Assembly: GCF_019175385.1 (NCBI RefSeq)
Contig: NC_083344.1
Location: 64,852,782 to 64,916,781 of the forward strand
From: Lycium barbarum
Taxonomy: Eukaryota > Streptophyta > Magnoliopsida > Solanales > Solanaceae
Direction of reading: 5' to 3'
Length of the DNA: 64,000 bases
The notes beneath the pieces were generated by a model, which had not been told where the DNA came from, did not search any database, and saw nothing but the letters and a program-made list of their open reading frames with translations. Of this stretch, positions 7,421-40,968 are shown piece after piece; positions within the stretch are counted from its first letter, which is position 1; each line of letters starts with the position of its first letter. The translations under genes and the position numbers were made by a program.

Positions 7421-8282
7421 CGTCTCAATAATGAAACACTTTGAAAGGTTTAATCAACTCAAGTTTCACCCCAGTCCAACCAGCAATATAAAGAGTAACA
7501 TCTAACAATGTGGAACTCGGTTCAATCAACGCGTACACATCATGAGAGAATAGTGACAATATACCTGTGACAATATCGGGAGAGGACTCAAGATCCTGTC
7601 ATCTAGCTAGTGCATAGATACGGTTCTGAGGGCCACTCGAACTAAATGCTCCCCCTCTACCTCTACCACAACCTGCTGACACCTGCGAACCTCGCCCCAC
7701 AGGGCGTACAGATGATGAAGAACCAATTGCTGATCTTGTGGGTTGAGCCTTATCTTTTCCATTCCTCAATGGATAATCACGCATCATATGACCAATCCGA
7801 TCGCAGGCATAACAAGCACCAGAACCTAAGCGACACTGTCCAAAATGTGGCCTACCACACAGAGCACATCGGGGTGAGGGTAGTCTCATCCGACCTGAAT
7901 CATTCCTATACTAGAAACTCAAAACTCTGGAGCTCTGGCCTAATCCGAAATAAATGGAACTATTAAATCTCTTACCCGCAAATCGAGGTGGTGCACTGAC
8001 CGCTGACTGGCCTGAATGCCAAAAATACTACTGCCTTTACCCCCTCTAAACTCACTAGCGGCACCGAAATATTTGGCCTTCTTACAATAACCTCTACCAT
8101 AATCACGCTCACCCTTTTGCGACTGCTGCTGTTCTTCCAGATTCTGGGCATGGGCCTGAATACGAGCAATATCAATCCTATCCTGAAGTGACGCTGTCAA
8201 GCACTTATTAATCAGATATGGCCCTAAACCACTCACAAACTAGTGTACGCGGTCCGCCATGTCAGCTACCACGGCTGGAGCA
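7421..8282 (-). pseudogene. E3 gag (3' half) and protease start, minus strand
   Basis: Reading right to left: Gag capsid end (region matching DRVH..VSGLGPYL..CLTASLQD), linker, then a zinc-knuckle pair, CALCGRPHFGQC and CYACDRIGHMMRDY, the last with terminal Cys changed to Tyr (7773-7775). Then comes the start of the protease, where the expected DPG catalytic motif reads EPS (Asp to Glu at 7521-7523). Similarity fades near 7420. The upstream half of this gag is at 34527-34800; E2 was inserted between the halves. Frameshifts separate the open pieces. This is the oldest recognisable element in the left half. Confidence 0.85.
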
Positions 8283-9179
8283 TGTTACACCTTAGAAATT
8301 TCCCCCGCTAGCGTACAATGATTAGGCCAATGAAGGGTATGACGTATATGGTGTTTTGACGTGGGACAACGTCGTTTAGACTGGTATTGAGGTGCTAAAT
8401 AATTGTTAAGAAGGTTCCATAAGGATTGAAGATCAAATGAAATTACGAGAATAAGACTCAGTGAACTGATGGGTTATACGGTCGATTATACGGACCGTAT
8501 AACATTATACGGTCGTATAATGAACCGTAAAAGAGTCACAGAATAAGGTTGCTGAAGGGATGATTTTACGGTCAATTATACGGACCGTATAAAATTATAC
8601 AGCCCATATAATGTACCGTCAAGTTGACACAGAAAAGGGTAGTCACTGGAGCAGTTTTACAGTCGATTATACGGACCGCATAAATTTATACGGACCGTAT
8701 AATGATGTCGGGTCAGATTTCAAGTTTTAAATAAGGACCCAAGTTCATTTTATTTATTTCATCTTCTCTCTCCACGACCCAACCTCTCTCTAGAACTTTC
8801 CAAAACTCTTCCAATACAAGAATCCAAGTGAAAATCAAGATCAACAACACCCAAATCTGTGAAATGAAGAGTGTGAAATTCATCAAAGTCCATCTACACC
8901 AAGAAATTGCAAAGAAAGTGAAGTAGGGTTTTTAGTATAAAGGAGTATTACTACTCAAGACTTGTTCAACCACCATCTAAGGTACGTTTCATGACCATCT
9001 CATGTTGTTTAAGGTATTGGAAGGTCAGAATACTTGAATTATAGAAAGGCATATCAAATGGGTCATAAATGGGTAAATAGTGCAAGTGGTTGAATGGTAA
9101 TTGGATTGAATCATGAATGTTGATATGTTGTGATTATGAATACGTTATAAATGATGTTTATATCATGAAACAAGTATGA
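8283..9179 (+). repeat. E2 5' LTR, part 1 of 3
   Basis: Starts TGTTACACCTTAG and matches the E2 3' LTR from 32184 onward. Interrupted after tatga (9175-9179), one copy of the N1 target duplication. Includes the palindrome cluster at 8474-8703 and a donor-like CTAAG/GTACG near 8982 (CTAAG/GTAAG in the 3' LTR copy). Confidence 0.93.
8474..8703 (+). repeat. Three tandem units with ATACGGACCGTAT palindromes
   Basis: Three units of roughly 90-95 bp, each starting near GGTC(A/G)ATTATACGGACC and holding a near-perfect palindrome ATTATACGGACCGTATAA plus a second copy about 15 bases on. The 3' LTR counterpart (32374-32617) has one extra GGACCGTATAAT, so copy number differs between the two LTRs of one element. 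Confidence 0.85.
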
Positions 9180-10416
9180 CGTTATATCCCGTATTTTGCG
9201 TATTCGGATAATTCGAGATAATTGCGGGAAGTTAAGGGCAAGGCTATATTTTTGACCTTATTTAGCACACAAATTGTTCACGAAAGTTTTGATGTGGAAA
9301 TATTAAGAAATTCAAGGGGAAAAAAGGGAAATTCGCAAGACGGCTCCTAGAAAATATGGAGGAAGGCCAAGGGAAAATTTGGAATTTGGAAAATAATTTT
9401 TCATGAATTATAAAACAAAAAAAAAAGATGGGCTTGCACTAAATGGGCCAAGTGGCCGGCAAAGGTGGTGGGCTTTAGCCCACATGGATTAATTTTACAT
9501 GTGCATAAAAGATGACTTAAAGGTCACATTTCTCATCTTTATCCATAGAGGGTTCAAGAAACTTGGACAGGAAAGAAAGGAAAAGGCCATTTCGGCCATG
9601 GCTTACCAAACAAGCTTTGGAAAAATCTTGATCAAAAAAATATTTTCTTCTAGCTTTTCTACTAATTGGAAGGTCCTCTTTAACATGGATAAATTGTTGG
9701 AGTAAGCAAAATATTCGTTGTCCGAGTTGTGGACTCTAGCCGAGAAAGAAGATGAGTGGGAAAAAGGTATGTGTTCAATCTCCTTTTACATGTATTATGG
9801 ATGATTATGTGTGTTGTAGTATGTAAAAGTGGATGAAAATCATGAAATATGGATGTTATGTTGGTGGCCGAATAGTGGTGTGTTGGTAAGAAGTGATGAA
9901 TTGATTTTATTTAGTATATTGATTGTTGTTGTTGTGGATTCCACGATGAAAATAAAGGTTGACGACTTGAAATGAAGTTGTAGTTGTTTGTGGGTTGTTG
10001 TAGAAGTTAATGCAATTTTAATATGGTTTCTTGTAATTATGAGAAGGAAGTTGTTAATGTGTAGATTGTCGGTGTAGTTCATGAATTTGGACAAAAAGAA
10101 AATATGTTGTCATTGTTCTTGTTGACTTTGGAAGGTTTCGTGTGAAGTGGTATGTTGGTCAAATTGTTTGAAGTGTTCTTGAATCATGTTAGAATGATTT
10201 CGGATTAATACTTGAATGTGAAATCATTGATGTTAGCTTGACTATGTGTGGTTGAATTGAACATAAATGAAACGCTGTCGATGTTTGTAGAAAGAAGTTG
10301 CCAACATTAGTATGCGTTTTAAATTGATTGTGGATATTGTTGGAATAACTGTTGATTTGTTGTTGATGATTTGGCCGAGTTGGGTTCTCGGGGATGGTGT
10401 ATTTACAGGGGAAATG

Positions 10417-10434
10417 CTGCCGAAATTTCGGCAG
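10417..10434 (+). promoter_or_regulatory. Perfect 18-bp palindrome CTGCCGAAATTTCGGCAG
   Basis: Lies downstream of an imperfect inverted pair (GCCGAG..CTCGG) and an AGGGGAAATG stretch. Closely related copies with the same surroundings occur in N1 3' LTR (14425-14442), N2 (18554-18571, 24254-24271), E4 (42032-42049, 49696-49713) and S1 (56000-56017). Such a site suits a dimeric DNA-binding protein or a hairpin; the function is unknown. Confidence 0.75.
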
Positions 10435-11296
10435 ATTATGAATGAATTTATTTGGAAGACTAAGGCAAGTGTGTGATCTTCTTGAATGTAGACTAGAGAT
10501 AGCGAGCTGGACAAATAAGCGTAGCTAATAGGACGTGGAACAGGTATCTAAAGCTTACCTTTTCTTTCTTTTGGCATGTCCTAGAGCTAAGTAAGCTGTG
10601 ATACTTATCTTGGGGTAACACTATTCTTGATTCCGAGCTTGTTAATGATTCTTATTCACTTCATGATGTGAGTATACTTAGTATAGCCGAGCTTATTGTA
10701 TGATTGAATAGCAAGAAAAGTCTAAAGAGTTCTGTAAGTAGTAATGTCCCTAACTTTTGTAGACGGTCTTGGATTGGTTGAAAATGGTTGTAGAAGTTCC
10801 TGTAATGATAACGTTCATAGCTTTCATGTGTTAACTTGGATTGTTTTGGAAATGCTCGTGGAGGTTTCTATAACGAATAATGTTCATAAATTTCATAAGC
10901 GAACTCGAATTGCGTTAGAAATGTTCATGGGGGGTTCTATAATGAATAATGTCAATAACGATATTTGAAAGGTACTTGGTATGATTGTTGCTTTAATTTT
11001 CCAAAAATAGCTTCTGAAACGTTCGTAGAATGTTCTGTACTTCAAACGCTCATAACTTTCTTATACAAAGTCGAGTTGACCCGAAACTTGTTTCTGAGTC
11101 TTCAGGCGTCGGTAAGTATACTTATCCATCGAGTGTTAAAAGTTGATTTACATGCATTTAGTTTCCTACTACTCTGCTCGTGCATATGGTTGTTAATTTT
11201 CTTATACTAACACAGATTTACTTGAAACGTGTTTGTGGCTTATTAATGATTTCAAGAAAATTAGTTTTGTACTAAAGGAAACATAAACTTGACTTT

Positions 11297-11431
11297 CAAA
11301 ACCACTCCGATGGGGGTGTGGGATTTTACTATTAAGATTTTCAAAACCACTCCGAAGAGGGTGCGAGATTTTACTATTTAGATTTTCAAAACCACTCTGA
11401 AGGGGGTGCGAGGTTGTACTATTTCATTCCA
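11297..11431 (+). repeat. Three tandem 45-bp units
   Basis: Each unit starts CAAAACCACTCCGA, continues with a GGGGGTG-type run and ends TTTTACTATT. Repeated in the N1 3' LTR near 15329-15463. Confidence 0.88.
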
Positions 11432-11472
11432 TATACGACTCATGTTTACATTCCATGGCATCGTTATTATTA

Positions 11473-11665
11473 TGTCGGGACCGGCATGCCCGAAGGGGCC
11501 AGGGTAGTATTATGTCGGAACCGGCATGCCCGAAGGGGCCATCATTATTGTTAATGTTGCAAGCGGCATGCCCGAAGGGGCCAGGACTAGTACTATTATG
11601 CCGGAAGCAGCATGCCCGAAGGGGCTATCATTTTTATTAAGTCGGAAGCGGCCGTCCGATGGGAC
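11473..11665 (+). repeat. Tandem GGCATGCCCGAAGGGGCC units
   Basis: Four good copies and one diverged copy, spaced about 40-45 bases. Each contains the palindrome GGCATGCC and pairs internally (GCCC..GGGGC). The same array is in the 3' LTR around 15500-15690. Confidence 0.88.
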
Positions 11666-11859
11666 TACTGTGATACTATATTTAGACTGTGTATTCTAGA
11701 ATCTGGAGTGTGCTGTACTTATATAGTGTATGCTGGAATTCTAGTAAGGCACTACGTGGCACAGTTCAAAATATTGTTCCCGGTAGCTTCCGGGTTGTCT
11801 CTTAATTGGTTACTGCTACGCTTTCCCGTGTTTATGATTCAGTGATGCTTTACATATTC

Positions 11860-11989
11860 AGTACATATTCCGTACTGACCCCCTTTCTTCGGGGGCTGCG
11901 TTTCATGCTACGCAGGTATACCCAGATGAGTAGAAGACTTTGCTAAAGGTGTTCCAGCGGAATTGGCGAACTCCATCTCAGTTCGGAGT
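11860..11989 (+). other. Conserved leader hairpins in the N1 LTR
   Basis: Hairpin 1 AGTAC..GTACT (11860-11876). Hairpin 2 CCCCC paired with GGGGG (about 11879-11895). Donor-like CGCAG/GTATA at 11915/11916. Hairpin 3 ACTCC paired with GGAGT (11970-11989). Relative to E1 and E2, hairpin 2 has two base pairs replaced by other complementary pairs. Confidence 0.7.
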
Positions 11990-12320
11990 GTTGCCGGGTC
12001 AAAGTACTTGTGTCATGGTATTTTGTATATGTTAGGGACTTTGCAGACAGTGTCCTGTGGATAGGGCGTCGAGAAGTGCGAATCATTTATAAATGTTAAA
12101 AGAGTATGTATTTTCAGATGACTTCAGTTGGTAAAAAGTACGAAATTGATTGAAAGTTTTCATGTTCTGTATAAAGATAATGACCTCTATTTGGAATAGT
12201 TTCATGTTTTTAAAAGTTTTTGAAATGACAGGTTTTGGTAAAGCGAACGTTTAAGGGTTTGCTCGACTCTGATGAGAGTCGGTGCCCATCATGCCCTATC
12301 AAGATGAGGGTGTGATAAAG

Positions 12321-12332
12321 TGGTATCAGAGC
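12321..12332 (+). promoter_or_regulatory. N1 primer binding site (tRNA-iMet)
   Basis: TGGTATCAGAGC, three bases after the 5' LTR, complementary to the 3' end of plant initiator tRNA-Met. It primes minus-strand synthesis. Confidence 0.95.
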
Positions 12333-12377
12333 AGGTCGTCCTAGGGGTTGTCTGCAAAGTCGTGTCTAGTAGAGTCT

Positions 12378-12413
12378 TGTTTATCGGTGTGTTGTGCACC
12401 ACATCTATAAACA
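12378..12413 (+). other. N1 leader stem-loop with GTGCAC loop (dimerization-site-like)
   Basis: 36-base structure. The 5' arm TGTTTATCGGTGTG pairs with the 3' arm CACATCTATAAACA over 14 positions with one mismatch and one G-U pair. The 8-base loop contains the self-complementary hexamer GTGCAC. It sits between primer site and leader 15-mer, the place where retroviruses carry their dimerization initiation site. The structure is seen; the function is inferred. Confidence 0.7.
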
Positions 12414-12462
12414 TGAGGCTACGAGACATTAATAGGGTGTCATTCTTTCTTTCATATCTAAG

Positions 12463-12477
12463 ATCGTGCGATAGAGC
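12463..12477 (+). promoter_or_regulatory. Leader 15-mer ATCGTGCGATAGAGC
   Basis: Identical in N1, E2 (27131-27145) and E4 (43259-43273), with one change in N2 (22232-22246). In E2 and E4 it lies 50-60 bases before the Gag start position. Being shared by coding and non-coding elements makes it a candidate RNA packaging signal. Confidence 0.6.
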
Positions 12478-12799
12478 CCAGTCGTAAGAAATGAAGTCCC
12501 TGGTACTAACCTTTGATTTTAGCTAAAGGACGACATCGACGGAAAAAAGCGACCGATGACATTAGCAGTTGCAGAGTACAACGGTAAGTAGCGGTGCGGA
12601 AGAGTCATGTTGGATAAGGTAAGGATATTGAAATATGATTGAAATGTAAAGTCGGGGGAATGGAAGTGAAGGTAAATATTAGGGATTGAAAAGGGTAAAT
12701 TAGTAATTGTTAAGGAGAAAGACGTGTTACGAGAATGTTTCGGAATCTGTAAGACTTCGACCTGCTTCAGATCATGTAATGAAGGCCACGCGAAGAGGT

Positions 12800-12902
12800 G
12801 GGTGCGATTATATCAGCATTAATGCACCGGATTTCACCGAAGTTTTAAGGTTAAGCGTGCTAGGGTGAGAGAAATTTTGGGATGGGTGACCCCCTGGGAA
12901 GT
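12800..12902 (+). other. 5S rRNA-derived segment inside N1
   Basis: 103 bases align without a gap to nucleotides 1-103 of plant 5S rRNA as I know it, about 78 percent identical by my count (23 differences). Blocks AATGCACCGGAT, GTTAAGCGTGCT (A-box region) and GGATGGGTGACC..CCTGGGAAGT (C-box region) are unchanged or nearly so, while positions 34-50 and 71-80 hold most differences. TTTT runs at two places would tend to stop RNA polymerase III, and the 3' end of 5S is missing, so this copy need not make a stable RNA. Confidence 0.85.
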
Positions 12903-13148
12903 GTACTAAAAGTTCTATAAATGTAGATATAAGAGACAAATAGGAAGAACATGTGGGAGTACGAAGGACAAGGATAATGAGTTGGCGCAGTCGATTAGAA
13001 AACCCAGGACATGGAATGAGGATTCATGTGAAGACCGAGGAGATCGAGCATAAAGAAAATAGGGTAAAATATAAGGAATGGACATGAAGGAAAGGGCAAC
13101 TATAAGGAGACCTCCCCCAAGTATTACAATACCCCATGAGGCCAGTTC

Positions 13149-13183
13149 AACATTCGAGTACGAATGTTCTAAAGAGGGGAGGA
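13149..13183 (+). promoter_or_regulatory. N1 pre-PPT hairpin and polypurine tract
   Basis: AACATTCG, loop AGTA, CGAATGTT (13149-13168), then the purine run AAAGAGGGGAGGA (13171-13183) ending at the 3' LTR. Confidence 0.85.
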
Positions 13184-16100
13184 TGTTATATCCCGTATTC
13201 TGCGTATTTGGATAATTCGAGATAATTGCAGGAAGTTAAGGGCAAGGCTATATTTTTGACCTTGTTTAGCACATAAGTTGTTCACGAAAGTTTTGATGTA
13301 GAAATATTAAGAAAGGCTATGGGCAAAAAAGGAAATTCGCAAGATGGCTCCTAGAAAATATGGAGGAAGGCTAAGGGCAAATTTGGAATTTGGAAAATAA
13401 TTTTTCATGAAATACAAAACAAAAAAAAATAAAGATAGCCTTGCACTATATGGGCCAAGTGGCCGGCCAAGGTGGTGGGCTTTAGCCCACATGGATTAAT
13501 TTTACATGTGCATAAAAGATGAGTTAAAGGTCACATTTCTCATCTTTATCCATAGAGGGTTCAAGAAACTTGGAGAGGAAAGAAAGGAGAAGGCCATTTC
13601 GGCCATGGCTTACCAAACAAGCTTTGGAAAAATCTTGATCAAAAAAATATTTTCTTCTAGCTTTTCTACTACTTGGAATGTCCTCTTTAACATGGAGAAA
13701 TTGTTGGAGTAAGCAAAATATTCGTTGTGCGAGTTGTGGACTCTAGCCGAGAAAGAAGATGAGTGGGAAAAAGGTATTTGTTCAATATCCTTTTACATGT
13801 ATTATGGATGATTATGTGTGCTGTAGTACGTAAAAGTGGATGAAAATAATGAAATATGGATGTTATGTTGGTGGCCGAATAGAGGTGTGTTGGTAAGAAG
13901 TGATGAATTGATTTTATTTAGTATATTGATTGTTGTTGTTGTGGATTCCATGATGAAAATAAAGGTTTGATGACTTGAAATGAAGTTGTAGTTGTTTGTG
14001 GGTTGTTGTAGAAGTTAATGCAATTTTAATATGGTTTCTTGTAATTATGAGAAGGAAGTTGTTAATGTGTAGATTGTCGGTGTAGTTCATGAATTTGGAC
14101 AAAAAGAAAATATGTTGTCATTGTTCTTGTTGACTTTGGAAGGTTTCGGGTGAAGTGGTATGTTGGTCGAATTGTTTGAAGTGTTCTTGAATCATGTTAG
14201 AATGATTTTGGATTAATACCTGAATGTGAAATCATTGATGTTAGCTTGACTAAGTGTGGTTGAATTGAACATAAAAGAAACGCCGCCGAAGTTTGTAGAA
14301 AGAGGTTGCCAACGTTAATATGCGTTTTGAATTGATTGTGGATATTGTTGGAATAACTATTGGTTTGTTGTTGATGATTTAGCCGAGTTGGGTTCTCGGG
14401 GATGGTGTATTTACAGGGGAAATGCTGCCGAAATTTCGGCAGATTATGAATGAATTTATTTGGAAGACTAAGGCAAGTGTGTGACAATGTGTTTAATGAT
14501 TGTGTAATCTTCTTGAATGTAGACTAGCAATAGCGAGCTGGACAAATAAGCGTAGCTAATAGGACGTGGAACAGGTATGTAAACCTTACCTTTTCTTTCT
14601 TTTGGCATGTCCTAGAGCTACGTAAGCTGTGATACTTATCTTGGGGTAACTCTATTCTTGATTCCGAGCTTGTTAATGATTCTTATTCACTTCTTGATGT
14701 GAGTATACTTAGTATAGCCGAGCTTATTGTATGATTGAATAGCTAGAAAAGTCTAAAGAGTTCTGTAAGTAGTAATGTCCCTAACTTTCGTAGACGGTCT
14801 CAGATGGCTTGAAAATGGTTGTAGAAGTTCCTGTAATGAATAACGTTCATAGCTTTCATGTGTTAACTTGGATTGTTTTGGAAATGCTCGTAGAGGTTTC
14901 TATAACGAATAATGTTCATAAATTTCATAAGCGAACTCGGATTGCGTTAGAAACGTTCATGGGTGGTTCTATAATGAATAATGTCAATAACGATATTTGA
15001 AAGGTACTTGGCATGATTGTTGCTTTAATTTTCCAAAAATAGCTTCTGAAACGTTCGTAGAAGGTTCTGTACTTCAAATGCTCATAACTTTCTTATACTA
15101 AGTCGAGTTGACCCGAAACTTGTTTCTGAGTCTTCAGGTGTCGGTAAGTATACTTATCCATCGAGTCTTAAACGTTGATTTACATGCATTTAGTTTCCTA
15201 CTACTCTGCTCGTGCTTATGGTTGTTAACTTTCTTATACTAACGCGGATTTACTTGAAACGTGTTTGTGGCTTATTGATGATTTCAAGAAAATTAGTTTT
15301 GTACTAAAGGAAACATAAACTTGACTTTCAAAACCACTCCGAGGGGGGTGTGGGATTTTACTATTAAGATTTTCAAAACCACTCCGAAGGGGGTGCGAGA
15401 TTTTACTATTTAGATTTTCAAAACCACTCCGAAGGGGGTGCGAGCTTGTACTATTTCATTCCATATACGACTCATGGTTGCATTCCATAGCATCGTTATT
15501 ATTATGTCGGGACCGGCAAGCCCGAAGGGGCCAGGGTAGTATTATGTCGGAACCGGCATGCCCGAAGGGGCCATCATTATTGTTAATGTTGCAAGCGGCA
15601 TGCCCGAAGGGGCCAGGACTAGTACTATTATGCCGGAAGCAGCATGCCCGAAGGGGCCATCATTTTTATTAAGCCGGAAGCGGCCGTCCGATGGGACTAC
15701 TGTGATACTATATTTAGACTGTGTATTCTAGAATCTGGAGTGTGTTGTACTTATACTGTGTATGCTGGAATTCGAGTAAGGCACTACGTGGCACGGTTCA
15801 AAATATTGTTCCCGGTAGCTTCCGGGTTTTCTCTAAACTAGTTACTGCTACGCTTTCCCGTGTTTATGATTCAATGATGCTTTACATATTCAGTACATAT
15901 TCCGTACTGACCCCCCTTTCTTCGGGGGTTGCGTTTCATGCCACACAGGTACACCCAGATGAGTAGAAGACTTTGCTAAAGGTGTTCCAGCGGAATTGCT
16001 GAACTCCATCTCAGTTGGGAGTGTTGCCGGGTCTAAGTACTTGTGTCATGGTATTTTGTATATGTTAGGGACTTTGCAGACAGTTTCCTGTGGATAGGGC

Positions 16101-16351
16101 GTCGAGAAGTGCGAATCATTTGTAGATGTTAAAAGAGTATGTATTTTCAGATGACTTCAGTTGGAAAAAAGTACGAAATTGATTGAAAGTTTTCATGTTC
16201 TGTATAAAGATAATGACCACTATTTGGAATAGTTTCATGTTTTTAAAAGTTTTTGAAATGACAGGTTTTGGTAAAGCGAACGTTTAAGGGTTCGCTCGAC
16301 TCTGATGAGAGTCTGGTGCCCATCATGCCCTATCAAGATGAGGGTGTGACA
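13184..16351 (+). repeat. N1 3' LTR
   Basis: Starts TGTTATATCCCG and ends GTGTGACA; 3168 bp. Same internal features as the 5' copy: palindrome at 14425-14442, tandem arrays, hairpins near 15892-15930. A short insertion near 14485 (acaatgtgtttaatgattgt) is absent from the 5' copy and accounts for most of the length difference. Confidence 0.93.
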
Positions 16352-16687
16352 TATTAAATGTGCGAAAACACAATAATGAGTTATAAGGATAAATGTGGGA
16401 AAATTGGAGAAAAATGGTGGAATGTGGTAAATATATATATATATATGATGGTTGTTGGATGCAATATTGTGGATGATGTTGTAAACGTTGGGAGTTGATA
16501 TAGATTATGGGAAAAGTAGTATAGATAAAGGAAGTGCTGCCCAATTTTCTCTAGAAATAGTGACGCATTCCCTTAGTCAATTAACTAACGTCTATGCGAA
16601 TTCTCTCTTGAAGGTAACGACGTGACGTTAAAGGAGAGGAAGTGAACGATAGCTTAGCTAAACGACAAAGGTATGTGAGGCTATTCC
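16352..16687 (+). repeat. E2 5' LTR, part 2 of 3
   Basis: Matches the E2 3' LTR from about 33090 to 33426. Includes an (AT)n run that is shorter here than in the 3' LTR (33165-33191), and the shared AAAG/GTATGTGAGGC motif. Ends with attcc, the left copy of the N2 target duplication. Confidence 0.92.
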
Positions 16688-19600
16688 TGTCACGACCCAA
16701 CCCCGTGGGCCGCGACTGGTCCCCTAACTGGGTACCCGTACATACCTACCTGACCGAATTTCGTACCATACAGATTTTTTTTTTTAAAACAGATGTTACA
16801 GAAGTACGCCGATACAGATACGGCACGCGCGCAAACATATATATGTATATACCTGAACATGCAGACATTTACAGATAAGCCGATAAGGCTAACATACAGA
16901 CGAAACCCGTAACCCACACATCTATCTACAGGCCTCTACAGACATACAGAATCATATGCCGGGCCAGGGCCCCGCCGTACCCAGAACTTCCATACATACA
17001 GAACATACGGAAAACAGAAGATATATATACCAAAGTACATGCTCCGAAGCAAAAGGAGCTCTTCAAGATAGCAGAACCTGTGCCCTAGACTGGCGGCGTG
17101 TCACCGAGTGCGCCTGTACCTGCGGGCATGTAACGCAGCCCCCGAAGAACGGGGGTCAGTACGAAAATGTACCGAGTATGTAAAGCAGAAACATAACAGA
17201 TACAATCATAGTCCGAACCGGAGTCACAGAAATATAACGGACAAAACTATACATCAGACGGACGGACAGAGTCATGATCCAGACCGACATACAGAATCGT
17301 GGTCCACACAGATAAACAGAATCATGGTTCTGACGAACCGACAGAATCATAATCCGGACAGACGAGTAGAATCAGAATCCATACGGACATACAGAATCAG
17401 AATCCATACGGACATATAGAATCAGAAGCCATATGGACATACAGACATAGTCGTAATTCAGACGGACAGACAGAATTATGCATGCAGAGTAGTGCAGAGT
17501 CATACTGAACCATACAGAATCATACAGAATCATACAGAGGCATGTGCTTATATAAATACTGATGGCACATGCATACAGACATACAGATTCCGGCCCTGTC
17601 TGGGGGCGCGGTAACAGAACCCGGCCCTCTTAGTACGGGACGCGGTGGACAGACCGAATCAGATCAAATCAGATCATATCAGATGCCATCCTGGCCGCCA
17701 TCCCCATACACAGATCAATATATCAAAATCATACAGATATAACAGATCCCGTCCCGTACGCCGAGGGACGCGGTGAACAATGCAGAGAAATATGCACGAT
17801 AACAGAACCTGGCCCGGGACGCAGTGAAGGAATGCATTGAGACAGCCACGAACAGATCCATGGGAAACCACATACATACAGACTCACATACGGACTCAAT
17901 CAGACTAAAGGGTGCCAACCGGCAAGTCAGAATCAGAGTATACGGATAGTATGCATAGTACGCGCCTATATCCTATTTGGGAAGGCACGACAGATTATTA
18001 TCAGAATCAGATTCTCAGATGTTCAGAAATCATTTTGTAAGAATTTTATAAAAATAGTTGTATCATGATCAAAATAATAGTTCAGATGGTTTCTGAGAAA
18101 ATCGGACAAAACGGAAGTATTTAAAGTATTACAGAAGATATCGGGCCTTGCGGGCCCGCCTCGGACCAACTCGAGGCAACATATGTAAATTATCGCTAAT
18201 AGACCTTATGAGGTCATCCATAATCGTTTGGAAGTGTTCCGACTCCGTTTAGGGAAGTTTTGTACAAAAATTCACTTTAAAGGCAATTTGTAAGAAAATA
18301 GCTTCAGTTGAATTGAAGGAATTGGAGCGGTTTTCCGTCTCGAATTCCGGGGAACGGAGTCGTACTTAAGGCTCGCGGCCGAGCCTATCACATCCAGAAC
18401 ATGCCTAGGAACAAAGGGAAGTGCTTCACATACCTCGATAGCGCCTTACGCTCGCTTGGCGTCGACTTCAATTTCGTCCAAAATCTAGAAATGGTCAAGT
18501 TTACCATTTGTTAGTTTCAAACTTTTCAATAATCCAACTTAACACTGACTTGCCTACCGAAATTTCGGCAGCATTTCCTCTGTATATAAGACATCCCCGA
18601 GACTTAGCTCGGCTCAATTCATCATCACAACAACCCAGAAATAGCATCAATAACAACAATATGCATTAAACATACGATATGGCATCACTAGCCATCCTTT
18701 CGACATAACGAAACATTTTGCGTTTCAACCTTACATTTCCAACCCAAACTTATTATTCTCATATTCATCATCCATCAAAATCATTACAACATACGTCGGA
18801 AGCATCCATACCATTTTCACACAATATTCATAAGGTCTGCAAACGTTCAAACTTTCCATTAAGCCACTACTTTTCCAATTTTTCCTAACCTTCAACATAC
18901 AAGTTCATTATACATTTCCATCTTCCAAATTCATCCACAATAATCATAATTTGCCTCTTGATACTTTCATTTCCATTTTTACATAAACCATAACAAAGTT
19001 GTATGTTTTCCTACAACAACTTAATAACCATTAAGTTCCTTCACTCTCCTCACATAATCCATGATTAAAACAACCAAAATATTAATTCAAATCAGTCCAT
19101 CAATTTCAATTAAAACAACCCCTCACCCATAAATTTCAACAAAACAACAAACGAGTTTATAATGCTGTTTTCTCCGTTCTAATTCGTTAAAACTCTAAAT
19201 AAACACTTTAATAACATAAAAGGAATTTTATAAATACCTTATCAGAAGTTCCACCACGAAAATTTCATCCCCCAAGACCAATATTTATCTCAAATTGAAG
19301 GCAACGCAACATACAACGTTTTTCTCTTCATGAGCTTGGGGATTCGGAGCTCGGATTTTGATCAAAATGGCTTCCTTAGCCTTGAAGTTTTCTCTCTCTC
19401 TCTCTCTAATGTTCTTGGAAGATCTTATCTGAAAATGATCAGCCCTAAAGTGAATTTTCCATATATATTAACGTTAATGGGCCTCATGGGCCGAAACATT
19501 AGTGTTTGGGTCGGGTCCAAACTTGCTGCCCTGCCAGCCCAAATTGCATCGTCCATATTTCCTTATCCAAATATCATTTTGACGATAGGTTTGTTGCATT

Positions 19601-20173
19601 GGAAACTAGACTCGATGAACTTAATTTTAGGCTTTTGAAACACCTTAAAACTCCTCATATACTAGAAGATATGCCTCCAACAATATGGGCTAAAAATCTG
19701 GTCCGAGATTTTTCTGAAGTTGTTCGGATTCATTTCGTTCAGATTCGTTTAACTTCTAATCCTCTTCCGACCCTCGTGTAACCTCTTATACATGCATATA
19801 CATAGTCATATACATACATAACAATCCATACACATCTCGAAGGGTCCGGAGAATCACAATAACCTTAAACATAACTGGAGAACTTACGAAGCTTCGACGA
19901 AACTCCAATCGCAAAAATATATTCATATCTTTTATCCATCTTCTATAACATTACTAATAATCTCAAATACTTTAAAAGGGCACTCACATTACCTCATATA
20001 CGCTCATAACGCGATTTCAAATCCTTTAGGTTACGATGTCACCTCGGGATACTTAAGGCAACCATACATATATAACGATATTCTTACTAACTCGATTAAC
20101 TTTCCTTGAACTTTCTTAACTCATTTTTTTCTTGTCTTAATTAAAATAGCACAGACTCTTACGGGGTGTAACA
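16688..20173 (-). repeat. N2 3' LTR
   Basis: Plus-strand ends are TGTCACGACCC and GGGTGTAACA. It carries loosely repeated CAGAATC-rich units (about 17200-17560), the CTACCGAAATTTCGGCAG palindrome (18554-18571), the leader hairpins (near 17040-17180) and a CT microsatellite near 19390 that is longer than in the other copy. The 103-residue ORF over the repeats is a by-product. Confidence 0.95.
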
Positions 20174-20209
20174 TCCTCCCCCCCTTTAAAACATTCGTCC
20201 TCGAATGTT
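20174..20209 (-). promoter_or_regulatory. N2 pre-PPT hairpin and polypurine tract
   Basis: On the minus strand AACATTCGAGGACGAATGTT (20209-20190) followed by a G-rich purine run up to the 3' LTR (20189-20174). Confidence 0.85.
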
Positions 20210-20549
20210 AAATTGACCTCATGGGGCGTCATACCATTTCGGGAGGGTTCCTTTCATAATCGTCCTTCGTGGACTTTCCGACATGGCTTCTTTACCAGCA
20301 TGATGGGGTAATTCTTCACATCACTGATTCAAACGCCTTCATAATATATTTTATCATACCCCACATAATTATCGGACCATAAACTATATTCTCGTAGCAG
20401 ACGAATGCTTTTCAGACATTATAAGTAATCGTCACTTTTTGGTACACTTCTGAGTTTCTTACCACATTATCGTAATCCCACTTCATACCAGACACCTCAT
20501 ACCAAACAGATTCAGAACTAGGACCGGACGCGTAGAAGCATATCGGACG

Positions 20550-20890
20550 GATTCATAATCGGAGGCAGACGTATTAAACTATGGCGGACGGATTCATAGT
20601 CAAAATCAGAGGTACGGAAGTATGTCAGACAAATCTGAGATCGGAGTCAGACGTACAGAGAGGTATCAGACAGATTCGAAATCAGAATCAGACGTACAGA
20701 AATGTATCATACAGAGTCGTGATCAAAGTCAGACAGACAGAAATGTATCAGACAGAGTCGTAATTAAAATCAGACATACGTAGATGTATCAGACAGACGC
20801 GTGATCAAGATCAGACGTACAGAGGCGTAATAGGAAGAGCCTTATCAGAATCGGAAGTGCAGAAGTATAACAGATAGAATCCGAATTAGA
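20550..20890 (-). repeat. Diverged tandem array of about 41-43 bp units
   Basis: Plus-strand units read roughly CAGACGTACAGA..GTATCAGACAGA..CGTGATCAAA, at least six to eight copies, each altered. Composition resembles the CAGAATC-rich repeats in the N2 LTRs, so both may derive from one source. Confidence 0.75.
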
Positions 20891-21368
20891 GTCAGATCAC
20901 TCCTATTAAGGCTCCAGTGATTTATAAAAAACAAATTCCTTATTGGTGAACTTGTTTGCCAAGTTATCATACAAATCGTCTTGCGTGTCGCTTATCGACT
21001 CTTTCAGAGATTTCCCCTTATTCACACTTCTTATTTTTCACCTTTCCTACTATTCTTCATCTGTCACAACCTTAGTTGCCGGGACTCGGCTCTTGATCCA
21101 TATGGGCACCAAACGAAAATCATACACACACATACACACATACATATATATTTACTAGTATCTTACTGGCGAACGTTTCTGACTGTTATTCAAATCCGCT
21201 CAATTTCCCGAGCGGTGTTGCACCTTTTCTTTTTGCCCATTTAGTCCGCCTCGTTCTGCGCAACTCCTGTAAGGGCACTAAATTACTCCACACATTCTAT
21301 TTTCCTTTTGGTTACCCCAAATTTCCATTTATATCTATCATACTTACTCTTGTGCAAAATTTTGCATT

Positions 21369-21466
21369 ACTTCCCAGGGGGGTCACCCATCCCAGAATTG
21401 CTCTGGCTTGAGCACGCTTAACCCCGAAACTTTCATGCATTTGGACGCGTTAGGGCTGATATAATT
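21369..21466 (-). other. 5S rRNA-derived segment inside N2
   Basis: Minus strand, colinear with nucleotides 7-103 of plant 5S rRNA with one extra C; about 71 percent identical by my count (28 differences in 97). GTTAAGCGTGCT (A-box region) and GGATGGGTGACC then CCTGGGAAGT (C-box region) are kept exactly as in N1, while positions 27-50 and 61-80 have diverged independently of N1. Unlike N1 it has no internal TTTT run. The 5S 3' end is absent. Confidence 0.82.
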
Positions 21467-22231
21467 TCGTCAATTGCCCTGCAGGACCTTTGTCACATAA
21501 TTTTAGGGCAAATCGGGGTCTTAGCAAATTTTTGGAAAATTTTTGTAGCGGGTCCCACCCCCGGCTAAGTTGCACAATTACCATATTGCCTTTCTGAATC
21601 TCCGATATTCACTTTCATACACATATACATACAATTACAGACAGGCCACAGATTTAAGTCTTCGTCCCACGAATTCCGTCTCCAAATAGTCGGTGAAATC
21701 TGATAAAATATCACCATAAGGTGCTCTCCAACCACCGACAGAAGAAAATTAAATTCCGACAAGTATCGCGGAACCTGTTTGTACTTACTATATATATATT
21801 TACTTCCATATCTCTGGAAAAAAAATTTGGGCAGAGGTTCCTCTGTATTTCTTACTATCCGAAACCTGTACACAAGAAATACCAACCATGCCTCACAGGG
21901 CCAACACATATACGCATATATACACATCATATCATGTCGTCTCGTAGCCACACGGGGCTAACAATTACAGATAAAATTATACAGATGTCGAGGCTTACCT
22001 CACATGCCCAACTCGAACAACATCGGAGGCTCCTTCATGTTCACTTTTCTGTTCAATCTTCAACCTTATATTTCTACCACACTTCAAACAACTTCTCCGA
22101 CACACAACTTTCATATTATTGCTTACCTGAGTACTGTGCGGTCTCCAATATCATCAGCCATTGCCTTCTGTTGATGCCGTCCTTTGGCTGAAATTAAAAG
22201 TTAGTCGAAAGGAATTCATATCCTACAGCTG

Positions 22232-22246
22232 GCTCTATCGCATGAT
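22232..22246 (-). promoter_or_regulatory. Leader 15-mer, N2 copy
   Basis: ATCATGCGATAGAGC on the minus strand, one change from the copies in N1, E2 and E4. Same order relative to the primer site and the stem-loop. Confidence 0.6.
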
Positions 22247-22291
22247 CTAAGATTCAAAGAAGGGAAACATCCTAGATGCCCTGTAGCTTCC

Positions 22292-22327
22292 TGTTTATAG
22301 ATGTGGTGCACAACACATCGATAAACA
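22292..22327 (-). other. N2 leader stem-loop with GTGCAC loop
   Basis: 36 bases; arms TGTTTATCGATGTG and CACATCTATAAACA pair at 13 of 14 positions. The loop holds the palindrome GTGCAC (22306-22311). The G-to-A difference from the N1 arm turns a G-U pair into a Watson-Crick pair. Confidence 0.7.
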
Positions 22328-22370
22328 AGACTCTACTAGACACGGCCTGTAGACTTTCCGAGGACTAACC

Positions 22371-22382
22371 GCTCTGATACCA
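22371..22382 (-). promoter_or_regulatory. N2 primer binding site (tRNA-iMet)
   Basis: Minus strand TGGTATCAGAGC, four bases inside the 5' LTR end. Complementary to the 3' end of initiator tRNA-Met. Confidence 0.95.
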
Positions 22383-22386
22383 CTTC

Positions 22387-25300
22387 TGTCACGACCCAAC
22401 CCCGTGGGCCGCAACTGGTACCCTAACTGGGTACCCGTACATACCTACCTGACCGAATTTCGTACCATACAGATTTTTTTTTTTTAAAATAGATGTTACA
22501 GAAGTACGCCGATACAGATACGGCACGCGCGCAAACATATATATGTATATACCTGAACATGCAGACATTTACAGATAAGCCGATAAGGCTAACATACAGA
22601 CGAAACCCGTAACCCACACATCTACCTACAGGCCTCTACAGACATACAGAATCATATGACGGGACAGGGCCCCGCCGTACCCAAAACTTCCATACATACA
22701 GAACATACGGAAAACAGAAGATATATATACCAAAGTACATGCTCCGAAGCAAAAGGAGCTCTTCAAGATAGCAGAACCTGTGCCCTAGACTGGCGGCGTG
22801 TCACCGAGTGCGCCTGTACCTGCGGGCATGTAACGCAGCCCCCGAAGAACGGGGGTCAGTACGAAAATGTACCGAGTATGTAAAGCAGAAACATAACAGA
22901 TACAATCATAGTCCGAACCGGAGTCACAGAAATATAACGGACAAAACTATACATCAGACGGACGGACAGAGTCATGATCCAGACCGACATACAGAATCGT
23001 GGTCCACACAGATAAATAGAATCATGGTTCGGACAAACCGACAGAATCATAATCCGGACAGACGAGCAGAATCAGAATCCATACGGACATACAGAATCAG
23101 AATCCATACGGACATATAGAATCAGAAGCCATACGGACATACAGACATAGTCGTAATTCAGACGGACAGATAGAATTATGCATGCAGAGTAGTGCAGAGT
23201 CATACTGAACCATACAGAATCATACAGAATCATACAGAGGCATGTGCTTATATAAATACTGATGGCACATGCATACAGACATACAGATTTCAGCCCTGTC
23301 TGGGGGCGCGGTAACAGAACCCGGCCCTCTTAGTACGGGACGCGGTGGACAGACCGAATCAGATCAAATCAGATCATATCAGATGCCATCCTGGCCGCCA
23401 TCCCCATACACAGATCAATATATCAAAATCATACAGATATAACAGATCCCGTCCCGTACGCCGAGGGACGCGGTGAACAATGCAGAGAAATATGCACGAT
23501 AACAGAACCTGGCCCGGGACGCAGTGAAGGAATGCATTGAGACAGCCACGAACAGATCCATGGGAAACCACATACATACAGACTCACATACGGACTCAAT
23601 CAGACTAAAGGGTGCCAACCGGCAAGTCAGAATCAGAGTATACGGATAGTATGCATAGTACGCGCCTATATCCTATTTGGGAAGGCACGACAGATTATTA
23701 TCAGAATCAGATTCTCAGATGTTCAGAAATCATTTTGTAAGAATTTTATAAAAATAGTTGTATCATGATCAAAATAATAGTTCAGATGGTTTCTGAGAAA
23801 ATCGGACAAAACGGAAGTATTTAAAGTATTACAGAAGATATCGGGCCTTGCGGGCCCGCCTCGGACCAACTCGAGGCAACATATGTAAATTATCGCTAAT
23901 AGACCTTATGAGGTCATCCATAATCGTTTGGAAGTGTTCCGACTCCGTTTAGGGAAGTTTTGTACAAAAATTCACTTTAAAGGCAATTTGTAAGAAAATA
24001 GCTTCAGTTGAATTGAAGGAATTGGAGCGGTTTTCCGTCTCGAATTCCGGGGAACGGAGTCGTACTTAAGGCTCGCGGCCGAGCCTATCACATCCAGAAC
24101 ATGCCTAGGAACAAAGGGAAGTGCTTCACATACCTCGATAGCGCCTTACGCTCGCTTGGCGTCGACTTCAATTTCGTCCAAAATCTAGAAATGGTCAAGT
24201 TTACCATTTGTTAGTTTCAAACTTTTCAATAATCCAACTTAACACTGACTTGCCTACCGAAATTTCGGCAGCATTTCCTCTGTATATAAGACATCCCCGA
24301 GACTTAGCTCGGCTCAATTCATCATCACAACAACCCAGAAATAGCATCAATAACAACAATATGCATTAAACATACGATATGGCATCACTAGCCATCCTTT
24401 CGACATAACGAAACATTTTGCGTTTCAACCTTACATTTCCAACCCAAACTTATTATTCTCATATTCATCATCCATCAAAATCATTACAACATACGTCGGA
24501 AGCATCCATACCATTTTCACACAATATTCATAAGGTATGCAAACGTTCAAACTTTCCATTAAGCCACTACTTTTCCAATTTTTCCTAACTTTCAACATAC
24601 AAGTTCATTATACATTTCCATCTTCCAAATTCATCCACAATAATCATAATTTGCCTCTTGATACTTTCATTTCCATTTTTACATAAACCATAACAAAGTT
24701 GTATGTTTTCCTACAACAACTTAATAACCATTAAGTTCCTTCACTCTCCTCACATAATCCATGATTAAAACAACCAAAATATTAATTCAAATCAGTCCAT
24801 CAATTTCAATTAAAACAGCCCCTCACCCATAAATTTCAACAAAACAACAAACGAGTTTATAATGCTGTTTTCTCCGTTCTAATTCGTTAAAACTCTAAAT
24901 AAACACTTTAATAACATAAAAGGAATTTTATAAATACCTTATCAGAAACTCCACCACGAAAATTTCATCCCCCAAGACCAATATTTATCTCAAATTGAAG
25001 GCAACGCAACGTACAACGTTTTTCTCTTCATGAGCTTGGGGATTCGGAGCTCGGATTTTGATCAAAATGGCTTCCTTAGCCTTGAAGTTTTCTCTCTCTC
25101 TCTCTAATGTTATTGGAAGATCTTATCTGAAAATGATCAGCCCTAAAGTGAATTTTCCATATATATTAACGTTAATGGGCCTCATGGGCCGAAACATTAG
25201 TGTTTGGGTCGGGTCCAAACTTGCTGCCCTGCCAGCCCAAATTGCATCGTCCATATTTCCTTATCCAAATATCATTTTGACGAGAGGTTTGTTGCGTTGG

Positions 25301-25871
25301 AAACTAGACTCGATGAAATTAAATTTAGGCTTTTGAAACACCTTAAAACTCCTCATATACTAGGAGATATGCCTCCAACAATATGGGCTAAAAATCTGGT
25401 CCGAGATTTTTCTGAAGTTGTTCGGATTCATTTCGTTCAGATTCGTTTAACTTCTAATCCTCTTCCGACCCTCGTGTAACCTCTTATACATGCATATACA
25501 TAGTCATATACATACATAACAATCCATACACATCTCGAAGGGTCCGGAGAATCACAATAACCTTAAACGTAACTGGAGAACTTACGAAGCTTCGATGAAA
25601 CTCCAATCGCAAAAATATATTCATATCTTTTATCCATCTTCTATAACATTACTAATAATCTCAAATACTTTAAAAGGGCACTCACATTACCTCATATACG
25701 CTCATAACGCGATTTCAAATCCTTTAGGTTACGATGTCACCTCGGGATACTTAAGGCAACCATACATATATAACGATATTCTTACTAACTCGATTAACTT
25801 TCCTTGAACTTTCTTAACTCATTTTTTTCTTGTCTTAATTAAAATAGCACAAACTCTTACGGGGTGTAACA
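22387..25871 (-). repeat. N2 5' LTR
   Basis: 3485 bp, near-identical to 16688-20173. Leader hairpins near 22740-22880: GTAC..GTAC, CCCCC with GGGGG, GCTCC with GGAGC. Palindrome at 24254-24271. A TATA-like ATATATAT lies around 25160-25167 on the minus strand, about 0.7 kb into the LTR. Confidence 0.95.
24134..24184 (-). other. 51-base exon-like block in the N2 LTR
   Basis: Minus strand: acceptor-like CCATTTCTAG, then ATTTTGGACGAA and 39 further bases, ending GAG before the donor-like GTATGTGAAGC. The same length and flanking signals are found in E4 (42117-42167, 49781-49831) and S1 (56086-56136). Splicing is inferred, not shown. Confidence 0.5.
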
Positions 25872-26987
25872 ATTCCTTTCCTTCTAATGGCATGAATCCT
25901 ATAGTATGACTTCTTTTCCTCGTCATGAGTTTGTATGTTCCGGAAAGCTAAAAGCCTATATCCATAAATGCCTATATAAGATAAGAGATATGATATGACG
26001 GTTCCATATTGTTAATGATGCTATTTGTTGCTTACACTCACCTTATATGCTACTTCCTTCAAGGTGAGGCAGGATGTCGATGATTGTTCCATAATGACAT
26101 CAGGGGATCACGACCTTACGTCACCCCGATAGAGTATAATTGAACTCGAGCCCTATGCATGTACTATGATAATATAAGCATGTTATGATGATGATATTAC
26201 TATTACACCGCGCCTATTTGGCCGGGCAGTCACCGCCAAGGCGGGCAGCTTTACACCATGGCCAGATGGCATGGGCAGACACCACTTGTGGGCGGCGTGA
26301 GATGATACCCTGGACGCAGGAGGCCTGGACGCGGGCTAATGTTATTGATTATCACACCGATCCTATATGGATGGCCAGCTTATACATTATGCATATATGA
26401 TATACTGATGAGTATGAGTAAGACAACATGCATTACTTCTATTATAATTATCAGTCAGATACAACTATTTCACATTGGTATTTTCTTTACATCATTGTCT
26501 TATTTCATCGTTTATGCCTCTCATACTCAGTACAATATTTGTACTGACGTCCGTTTTTCTTTGGACGCTGTGTTCATGCCCACAGGTAGACAGGGAGGTG
26601 AGCTTGATCCAGATTCTTAGTAGATGTCAGCTGATTGAGAGCACTCCATTGTTCGGAGTTGCTTATGATTCTTCTTTTGGTACATAAGTACATTTTGGGC
26701 ATGGCGGAGTCTTGTTCCGTCTATATGTTTATATGTCAGTAGATGCTCGTAGATACGCAGTGTGGGTTAGATGATCTCACAAGATGCTATTATGTGTATA
26801 TATTATTTTGATGACCGAGAGGCAAATATATATAAGGCATTTATGTTTCCATATAAAATATGTTTTTCCTACAATTAGTGTATAAAGTTGGTGAAAGAGC
26901 ATTAAGTGAGTACGATGAGTAGTAGCTCGAGTGGTGCTCGGTGGCTAGTACCGCGTACCCGTCGCAGCCCCTAGCTGGGTCGTGACA
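25872..26987 (+). repeat. E2 5' LTR, part 3 of 3
   Basis: Begins with the right copy of the N2 target duplication (attcc) and matches 33427-34526 of the 3' LTR. Ends GGTCGTGACA, followed by AAAG and the primer site. Contains CGGGCAG/CGCGGGC-rich DNA around 26220-26340 and the leader hairpins. Confidence 0.93.
26529..26662 (+). other. Conserved leader hairpins in the E2 5' LTR
   Basis: Hairpin 1 AGTAC..GTACT (26529-26545). Hairpin 2 CGTCC with GGACG (to 26568). Donor-like CACAG/GTAGA at 26585/26586. Hairpin 3 ACTCC with GGAGT (26641-26662). The 3' LTR copy starts at 34068 and extends hairpin 2 to ACGTCC with GGACGT. Confidence 0.7.
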
Positions 26988-27003: not shown

Positions 27004-27047
27004 AGTTCGTCCTAGTAAGTGTCTACGAGCCTTGTCTAGTAGAGTGT

Positions 27048-27082
27048 TGTTTATGGTGTATTGCGCGCCACATCAATAAACA
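27048..27082 (+). other. E2 leader stem-loop with GCGCGC loop
   Basis: Arms TGTTTATGGTGTA and CACATCAATAAACA with one unpaired base, one mismatch and a G-U pair. The loop hexamer is GCGCGC (27063-27068) where N1 and N2 have GTGCAC. The two hexamers differ at two positions yet both are self-complementary. Confidence 0.65.
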
Positions 27083-27130
27083 GGAGGCTACAGGGCATTT
27101 AGGAAATATGACCATCCTTCTTCTAAGGGA

Positions 27131-32147: not shown

Positions 32148-32183
32148 AACATTCGGGGACGAATGTTCCAAAGGGGGGCAGAA
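32148..32183 (+). promoter_or_regulatory. E2 pre-PPT hairpin and polypurine tract
   Basis: AACATTCG, loop GGGA, CGAATGTT (32148-32167), then AAAGGGGGGCAGAA up to the 3' LTR. The loop differs from other families while the arms are identical. Confidence 0.85.
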
Positions 32184-33165
32184 TGTTACACCTTGGAAAT
32201 TTCCCCCGCTAGCGTACAGTGATTAGGCCAATGAAGGGTATGACGTATATGGTGTTTTGACGAGGGACAACGTCCTTTAGACTGGTATTGAGGTGCTAAA
32301 TAATTGTTAAGAAGGTTCCATAAGGATCGGAGATCAAATGAAATGATGAGAATAAGACTCAGTGAACTGATGGGTTATACGGTCGATTATACGGACCGTA
32401 TAACATTATACGGCCGTATAATGGACCGTAAAAGAGTCACAGAATATGGTTGCTGAAGGGATGATTTTACGGTCAATTATACGGACCGTATAAAATTATA
32501 CGGCCCGTATAATGTACCGTTAAGTTGACACAGAAAAGGGTAGTCACTGGAGCAGTTTTACGGTCGATTATACGGACCGTATAAATTTATACGGACCGTA
32601 TAATGGACCGTATAATTATGTCGGGTCAGATTTCAATTTTTAAATAAGGACCCAAGTTCATTTTATTTATTTCATCTTCTCTCTCCACGACCCAACCTCT
32701 TTCTAGAACTTTCCAAAACTCTTCCAATACAAGAATCCAAGTGAAAATCAAGATCAACCACACCCAAATCCGTGAAATCAAGAGTGTGAAATTCATCAAA
32801 GTCCATCTACACCAAGAAATTGCAATGGAAGTGAAGTAGGGTTTTTAGTATAAAGGAGTATTGCTACTCAAGACTTGTTCAACCACCATCTAAGGTAAGT
32901 TTCATGACCATCTCATGTTGTTTAAGGTATTGGAAGGTCAGAATACTTGAATTATAGAAAGGCATAGCAAATGGGTCATAAATGGGTAAATAGTGCAAGT
33001 GGTTGAATGGTAATTGGATCGAATCATGAATGTTGATATGTTGTGATTATGAATACGTTATAAATGATGTTTATATCATGAAACAAGTATTAAATGCGCA
33101 AAAACACAATAATGAGTTATAAGGATAAATGTGGGAAAATTGGAGAAAAATGGTGGAATGTGGTA

Positions 33166-33196
<31 letters not shown>

Positions 33197-40300: not shown

Positions 40301-40648
40301 AATTAACTCTAAAGATGATTTGAGCAAATGCCCTTCTATATAATCTTGGCCTGTTTTTCTCCAAAAATTGTGGTCTGACCAGCATTTGGTTTTGATATAA
40401 AGCATGTTTGAGTCTAGAGGTCAAGGAATGGATCATAGGAATTATTATGTACCTTTTGCTTGATTGTTTGTTTTTAGGCAATTGTTTGGACCTAGAGTGA
40501 AGTTTTGACACCTCTTAGGATGTGAAAAGCCTAGAACTAGCCAAATGACCTTTCTGTAAACTAAAAAATGACTTATGCAAAACCTCTCTTATGTGGTCTG
40601 CCCTTTTCTGTGTATTTGTGACATTCTGAGGATTCTTTTGAGGGCATA
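37331..40648 (+). repeat. T1 5' LTR, part 1
   Basis: From TGTTGACACC to gcata (40644-40648), the left copy of the E4 target duplication. Contains a G-rich then C-rich pair of homopolymer tracts (about 37811-37890), otherwise AT-rich and non-coding. ORFs of 60-86 codons here are chance. Confidence 0.8.
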
Positions 40649-40968
40649 TGTTATATCCCGTGTTTTCACACGTTGGAAAAATTTGAAAACAATCTTGACT
40701 TGTAAGAAATAAGGTCATAGTTGATTTTTATTTGACATAGGAGTTGTGCATGAAAGAGTATTGTTGTGAGAGTGCGGGATAAGGCTAAAGGTAAATTTGA
40801 AATTTTGGAAATTAGTTTCGGGAATTACAAAATATGATTCATAAGTCATTGGGCTCAAAAAAATTGAAATGAAAAATGAGGCCCAATTTACTAGGGGTGG
40901 CCGGCCAAGCTCTTGGTCTTGGCCCAAGTCCACCTAGTTGATCATGTGCTAGTCATGTGATCAACTAG

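Follow-up and report, generated by a model that had tools for sequence, protein, structure and literature searches.

This locus raises the question of why part of a 5S rRNA gene should lie inside an LTR retrotransposon that encodes no protein, and what may have kept it there. A preliminary description of the window (the whole stretch of DNA analysed, 64 kb) had placed 103 bases resembling plant 5S rRNA in the 866-bp interior of such an element, here called N1. We examined this block, the element around it and the rest of the window.

Two long-LTR elements with an interior 5S-derived block

N1 was found to be a nested LTR retrotransposon with the following features.

9180-16351, plus strand: N1, whole element, 7172 bp
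9175-9179 (TATGA) and 16352-16356 (TATTA): 5 bp target-site repeats, identified from the flanks against an unoccupied paralogous site
9180-12317, plus strand: 5′ LTR, 3.1 kb, ends set from its termini and the target-site repeat
12318-13183, plus strand: interior, 866 bp
12321-12332, plus strand: primer binding site (PBS) TGGTATCAGAGC, exact match
12800-12902, plus strand: 5S-derived block, 5S nt 1-103 (blastn, Rfam)
12849-12860, plus strand: box A, fitting RGTTAAGYRHGY, the pattern printed in PMC7215508
12879-12891, plus strand: box C, fitting RRRATRGGTRACY, 18 nt past box A
13171-13183, plus strand: polypurine tract (PPT), recognised from the sequence and adjoining the 3′ LTR
13184-16351, plus strand: 3′ LTR, pairing with the 5′ LTR

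The two N1 LTRs are 95.4% identical, and the unoccupied paralogue of the target lies within 33060-33115. The longest stop-free sense stretch of N1 is 55 codons, which together with the 3.1 kb LTRs bears out the long-LTR, non-coding structure reported previously. Tandem repeats with the core GGCATGCCCGAAGGGGCC occur in the N1 LTRs at 11459-11652 and 15491-15684.

Our blastn search of the window with a plant 5S rRNA aligned 79/103 positions (76.7%) without a gap (E=4e-20). The count was again 79/103 with a second 5S reference, for which printed angiosperm probes back nt 1-30 and 34-89 but not nt 31-33 and 90-119. The gapless colinearity with nt 1-103 was thus as described before, and the earlier hand count of about 78% identity was slightly too high. 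The similarity begins at 5S nt 1 and is gone past nt 103 (2/16 over nt 104-119), so the 3′ end is indeed missing, as had been stated. RF00001 matched 12800-12918 with 34.1 bits (E=0.0032), under its gathering score of 38; it was the sole Rfam family at E<=1 across the 64 kb, where none reached the gathering score. The check by RF00001 or BLASTN suggested earlier therefore came out positive for BLASTN and under the cut-off for Rfam, and strict Rfam annotation would overlook the N1 block.

Our analysis also identified a second block-bearing element, N2, which is younger and larger than N1 and is absent from the preliminary description.

16688-25871, minus strand: N2, whole element, 9184 bp
16683-16687 and 25872-25876: target-site repeats ATTCC on both sides of the element
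16688-20173, minus strand: 3′ LTR, 3.5 kb, from termini and repeats
20174-22386, minus strand: interior, 2.2 kb, non-coding by the tests run
21369-21472, minus strand: 5S-derived block, ending at 5S nt 103 as in N1
21381-21393, minus strand: box C, 18 nt past box A
21412-21423, minus strand: box A, matching the same pattern
22371-22382, minus strand: PBS TGGTATCAGAGC, exact match
22387-25871, minus strand: 5′ LTR, pairing with the 3′ LTR

The N2 LTRs are 99.05% identical, and the unoccupied paralogue of its target lies within 33400-33460. Two ORFs of the N2 interior gave no Pfam match, and the longest stop-free sense stretch of the element is 130 codons. The N2 block aligned to plant 5S rRNA at 69/97 positions over 21465-21369 (blastn) and gave an nhmmer E value of 4.6e-29 with a model that had this block among its sequences. 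Its RF00001 score was 20.1 bits, so it is recognised through its resemblance to 5S and to N1 and not through the family model. Four of its first seven nucleotides differ from 5S. Each block is interior and in sense orientation in its own element.

The whole window was scanned by nhmmer --max with a model built with the N1 and N2 blocks. Three matches were found at E<=10: the N1 block, the N2 block and 34 nt at 27493-27526 (E 5.2). The last, inside the coding element E1, was considered as a third block and taken as chance. No 5S match at E<=10 fell in any LTR of the window; this result and the LTR coordinates agree with the interior position originally given for the N1 block. The printed Cassandra box pattern had exactly two matches in the window, the N1 and N2 blocks, both with zero mismatch (0/100 shuffles). 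SINE3 elements, which are 5S-derived SINEs, stand alone and have a 3′ tail and target repeats of their own; by eye, neither a tail nor a flanking repeat was seen at the block. Predicted proteins were compared with chance translations across the block (seven antisense candidates and one sense), and none matched at E<=10.

Copies of the block were also sought in non-plant collections, which are silent on how common it is. None was found in IMG/VR (three DNA patterns and part of the E2 pol), in prokaryote contigs (one pattern) or in a plasmid collection (distant blastn with the N1 interior). One IMG/VR stretch matched a pattern yet encodes no relative.

E1 and E2 are the coding Ty3/gypsy elements of the window and have complete LTR pairs. 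Gag, RT and RNase H domains were found in both, and integrase and a chromodomain also in E2, in the part of the ORFs that was scanned. The leaders of N1 and N2 are 73-76% identical to that of E1, and 35-37 nt on the PPT side are common to N1/N2, E1 and E2 (86-89%); the 3′ end of the N1 interior is alignable to N2, E1 and E2. This suggests that N1 and N2 are derivatives of Ty3/gypsy elements, with PBS, leader and PPT side in common with a coding member. In a tblastn search with ten E1/E2 ORF pieces against N1 and N2, matches with E<0.01 occurred only at the leader, and the best non-leader match, in N1, covered 23 residues (E 0.018). Apart from the chance-level 34-nt match in E1, nhmmer found no 5S block in E1 or E2.

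Several further observations concern these neighbours. An E1-like 3′ part is present twice in the window at about 94-95% identity (8279-9177 + 16352-16692 + 25874-26987 versus 32180-34526). N1 and N2 were both inserted in one of these copies, so that the other shows both unoccupied sites. In E2 (40648-50879) the LTRs are 98.8% identical and the exact PBS is absent; the start of its interior corresponds to about position 100 in that of N2, and its 5′ leader seems, from this sequence, to have been deleted. Among the 59 proteins listed for the E2 gag (43322-44041), several of them unnamed, the best named matches came from Lycium barbarum, followed by Solanum dulcamara and Nicotiana, and a nightshade-family plant is the most likely source of the window. 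The N2 interior contains diverged tandem repeats between the PPT and the 5S block (20541-20896).

Box conservation and probable common origin of the blocks

The identity of N1 and N2 was compared along the block and its flanks.

Upstream flank: 88/130 (gaps omitted), 88/145 with gap columns
5S nt 1-49: 31/49
5S nt 50-62, box A stretch: 13/13
5S nt 63-78: 9/16
5S nt 79-103, box C stretch: 25/25, or 25/27 with gap columns
Downstream flank: 58/89 (gaps omitted), 58/97 with gap columns

The two misses among the 27 columns are an inserted C of N2 and a gap column right after nt 103; the extra C belongs to a C run that spans the end of box C and the bases directly after it. The two box stretches were identical at 38/38 positions, versus 186/284 (about 65%) over the flanks and the remaining block together. 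Under chance, identity at every one of the 25 columns in the printed Cassandra boxes has a probability of 7e-5 (gaps omitted) or 6e-6 (gaps counted). With the full set of 38 columns, delimited after the alignment was seen, the corresponding values were 4e-7 and 7e-9.

That the boxes are kept while the rest drifted had been proposed from N1 alone, where the contrast with 5S is marginal (Fisher P 0.04 or 0.025). The same contrast for N2 alone gave P 0.002-0.009, and with the two copies compared to each other it became strong: the box A and box C columns agreed at 31/31, versus 45/72 for the columns of the block outside them (P about 1e-5). Including the intermediate element, which is not identical in N1 and N2 (differences at nt 67 and 68), gave P 0.003. 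Uniform divergence across the block, which the preliminary description had said would speak against its claim, was not seen between N1 and N2, two copies in all. A run-length test blind to box positions was non-significant (P 0.088), the run over box C being interrupted by the extra C of N2. Box A, box C and their 18-nt spacing have thus been held fixed while the remainder of the block drifted like the flanks, in the two copies compared.

Changes common to both copies at nt 50 and 80 depart from the printed angiosperm 5S, which argues that the boxes were not merely refreshed from 5S genes. A printed gymnosperm probe likewise has G at nt 80, so this change need not damage the box. C-to-T or G-to-A changes make up 13 of the 24 in N1 and 12 of the 31 in N2, counted against 5S nt 1-103. 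Decay of this kind was rejected as the sole cause of the pattern, as it would not spare both boxes; the CpG of box A is intact in N1 and N2.

The blocks could be fossils, that is, an old captured 5S fragment with no function whose identical boxes are luck in a comparison of just two copies. The N1 block, with its TTTT runs, its lost 3′ end and its score under the Rfam cut-off, would suit such a history, as would the run-length result. The identical columns fall on the printed boxes with the remainder drifted like the flanks, and we regard this explanation as somewhat unlikely. Another DNA-binding protein, or a signal specific to the element, might also maintain the box stretches without Pol III. 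The conservation does extend past box C up to nt 103, and the same interiors hold strong islands unrelated to 5S, namely the PBS and the following leader hairpin with a palindromic loop, which lies 3′ of the PBS.

12361-12432, plus strand: leader hairpin of N1
22346-22272, minus strand: leader hairpin of N2
27026-27103, plus strand: leader hairpin of E1

This hairpin is nearly unchanged between N1 and N2 (two identical 26-nt runs). Its fold z in N1 is -2.66, and a consensus hairpin was obtained from the three sequences, among which no stem pair is changed on both sides. The loop carries a 6-nt palindrome, GTGCAC in N1 and N2 and GCGCGC in E1, which is still palindromic though different; the kissing loop of retroviral dimerisation is an analogue. 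Against a keeper other than Pol III stands the fact that both conserved islands of the block sit on 5S promoter boxes at exactly the printed spacing, and this alternative appears decidedly improbable.

The two blocks probably also share a history. Over nt 1-103, 16 positions are changed from 5S in both copies, and 12 of these 16 carry the same base. Simulated independent change gave a mean of 4.9 shared positions and reached at least 12 in 0.04% of 20,000 runs (P 0.0004); box and non-box counts were matched and 75% transitions assumed in the simulation, and the count of shared changes refers to the angiosperm reference, in which position 93 lies outside the printed probes. The alignment score of the upstream flanks was reached by 0/500 mononucleotide shuffles. 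The downstream flanks gave P 0.056 against such shuffles, barely beating chance, so their identity figure is soft. The same-base changes and the upstream flank point to a single ancestor as the most likely source of both blocks, and the 12 common changes suggest that the capture probably predates the split of the N1 and N2 families.

Two independent captures, with 5S genes or Cassandra as the donor, or recurrent conversion by such sequences, would gain some plausibility from PMC7215508 and PMC10853983, which describe Cassandra as common across plants and its 5S part as variable between the boxes. The same 3′ end, the 12 shared changes and the alignable upstream flank make this very improbable. 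That comparison involved N1, N2 and the 5S reference, and a single capture from Cassandra stays compatible with it.

The K80 distance between LTRs was 0.009 for N2, which is young, and 0.038 for the older N1; N2 therefore carried the block when it moved, not long ago. After its insertion N1 should have gained only some two changes in the block, so that the drift of this block took place mostly while the family was mobile. The divergence of the N1 and N2 flanks corresponds roughly to 17-31 million years (gaps omitted) or 22-40 million years (gap columns counted as changes) under assumed rates of 1.3e-8 and 7e-9. In the 3′ part of the LTRs, a 73-nt stretch of N1 (11846-11918) is 89% identical to N2 (22817-22887, minus strand) and is perhaps a promoter or polyadenylation signal. 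The rest of the LTRs showed one stretch alignable at 60%, plus a few short weak matches.

RNA fold, terminators and upstream elements

The block might instead act as RNA, with a 5S-like fold in the genomic transcript that serves export, packaging or splicing through its binding of TFIIIA or ribosomal protein L5. Plant TFIIIA has a 5S mimic exon, which offers an analogue, and the sense orientation in N1 and N2 is as this explanation would have it. N1 keeps 13 of the 14 tested pairs of helices II and III, and pairing is maintained through double-sided changes at 34-41 in both copies and at 14-65 and 31-46 in N2. Yet random placement of the N1 substitution types keeps 12.5 pairs (P 0.52), and the 10/14 pairs of N2 compare with a null of 8.9 (P 0.33). 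The fold z of the blocks (0.20 and -0.09) is like that of shuffles, versus -1.81 for a plant 5S sequence. The block is without the 3′ strand of helix I, and nt 1-49, which hold the partners of box A, are the part that has drifted to 31/49. A conserved 5S RNA fold was thus not favoured, with pairs and folding energy no better than chance, and we consider an RNA element improbable. Because the fold is kept no better than chance, selection is more likely to have acted on the DNA boxes than on a 5S-like RNA.

TTTT runs within the block had been held against its function. Such runs are present in N1 at +44 and +76, but each was completed by a C-to-T change that is absent from N2, and they count only slightly against the source copies having been functional. 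Past these runs, N1 reaches no further T-run before its 3′ LTR. The first TTTT of N2 falls at +114, close to the 5S gene end, where N1 has none, and hence no terminator is common to both copies. Plant 5S genes possess upstream TATA, GC and C elements; none of these was clear by eye upstream of the block in N1 or N2.

Known systems and the proposed role of the block

The nearest known system is Cassandra, a TRIM of about 600-900 bp in total with a 5S sequence in each LTR, as described in PMC7215508 and PMC10853983. PMC7215508 prints its pattern as box A RGTTAAGYRHGY, 18 nt and box C RRRATRGGTRACY, and its PBS as TGGTATCAGAGC; PMC10853983 describes the boxes as fixed and the intervening stretches as variable. 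N1 and N2 resemble it as protein-less LTR elements with 5S-derived DNA, the same boxes, the same 18-nt spacing and variability between the boxes. They also have the same PBS TGGTATCAGAGC, which is weak evidence because the coding element E1 has it too. They differ in that the block is single and interior, the LTRs are 3.1-3.5 kb and the totals are 7.2 and 9.2 kb. The contrast with Cassandra drawn earlier for N1 was therefore sound, and membership of N1 and N2 in Cassandra was rejected, as they have no 5S block in the LTR and are not miniature. The survey in PMC4717578 reports no 5S sequence in any TRIM family besides Cassandra.

Helenus and Ajax (the TRIMp3 proposal) are presented in PMC10886601 as non-autonomous elements with a small-RNA-gene promoter in the LTR, Helenus at 311-1263 bp and Ajax, from nemerteans, at 421-434 bp. 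Ajax is like N1 and N2 in that, by the same account, it keeps the 5S boxes without the 5S fold (PMC10886601). Their promoter lies in a short LTR, whereas the block of N1 and N2 is interior and the LTRs are long. Long LTRs are a feature of LARDs (large retrotransposon derivatives), which N1 and N2 resemble in this respect and in their non-coding interior. A conserved RNA structure of the core also characterises LARDs; in N1, N2 and E1 the leader hairpin is conserved as sequence, with no double-sided pair change. LARDs such as Sukkula have a non-coding core and a presumed reliance on an autonomous partner, according to the available passages of PMC7215508, and in contrast to N1 and N2 no 5S-derived block is mentioned for them in those passages. 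In the titles and opening abstract lines of the openly licensed papers listed, no long-LTR element with a 5S block in its interior appeared.

On balance we favour the explanation that a type-1 Pol III promoter or TFIIIA docking site has been kept inside long-LTR elements of Pol II type. An ancestor of at least two protein-less long-LTR Ty3/gypsy-type families would have captured 5S nt 1-103 in its interior in sense orientation, a step for which the sequence, the position, the orientation and the shared changes were all observed. The capture probably occurred when reverse transcriptase switched its template to 5S rRNA, since the N1 block starts exactly at nt 1, has its 3′ end cut and is in sense orientation; the enzyme would have entered within the 5S RNA and then run off its 5′ end. 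Box A, box C and the 18-nt spacing would then have stayed fixed as the remaining block drifted. The boxes most likely provide a docking site on the interior DNA for TFIIIA, which would bring in TFIIIC and Pol III; this site would act beside a Pol II promoter that the LTR presumably contains. Such docking may maintain the copy in a transcribable state or may yield a short Pol III RNA, and the chromatin role is favoured because N1 and N2 have no common terminator.

More tentatively, this lineage may use two polymerases, with Pol II acting from the LTR for genomic RNA and an internal 5S-type promoter recruiting TFIIIA, TFIIIC and Pol III in mid-element, where it would serve as a boundary or to counter silencing, or as a source of short RNA, over about 17-40 million years. 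The two 5S-carrying kinds of LTR element found in print, Cassandra and Ajax, have the block within tiny LTRs, a position from which it could drive the element as a whole. If Pol III starts in the middle of N1 or N2, its transcript cannot be a full replication template, and the boxes and their spacing still appear to have been kept. To judge from its sequence, the module of N1 and N2 is a Cassandra-like promoter in an unusual place, the interior, and in an unusual type of element, one with long LTRs.
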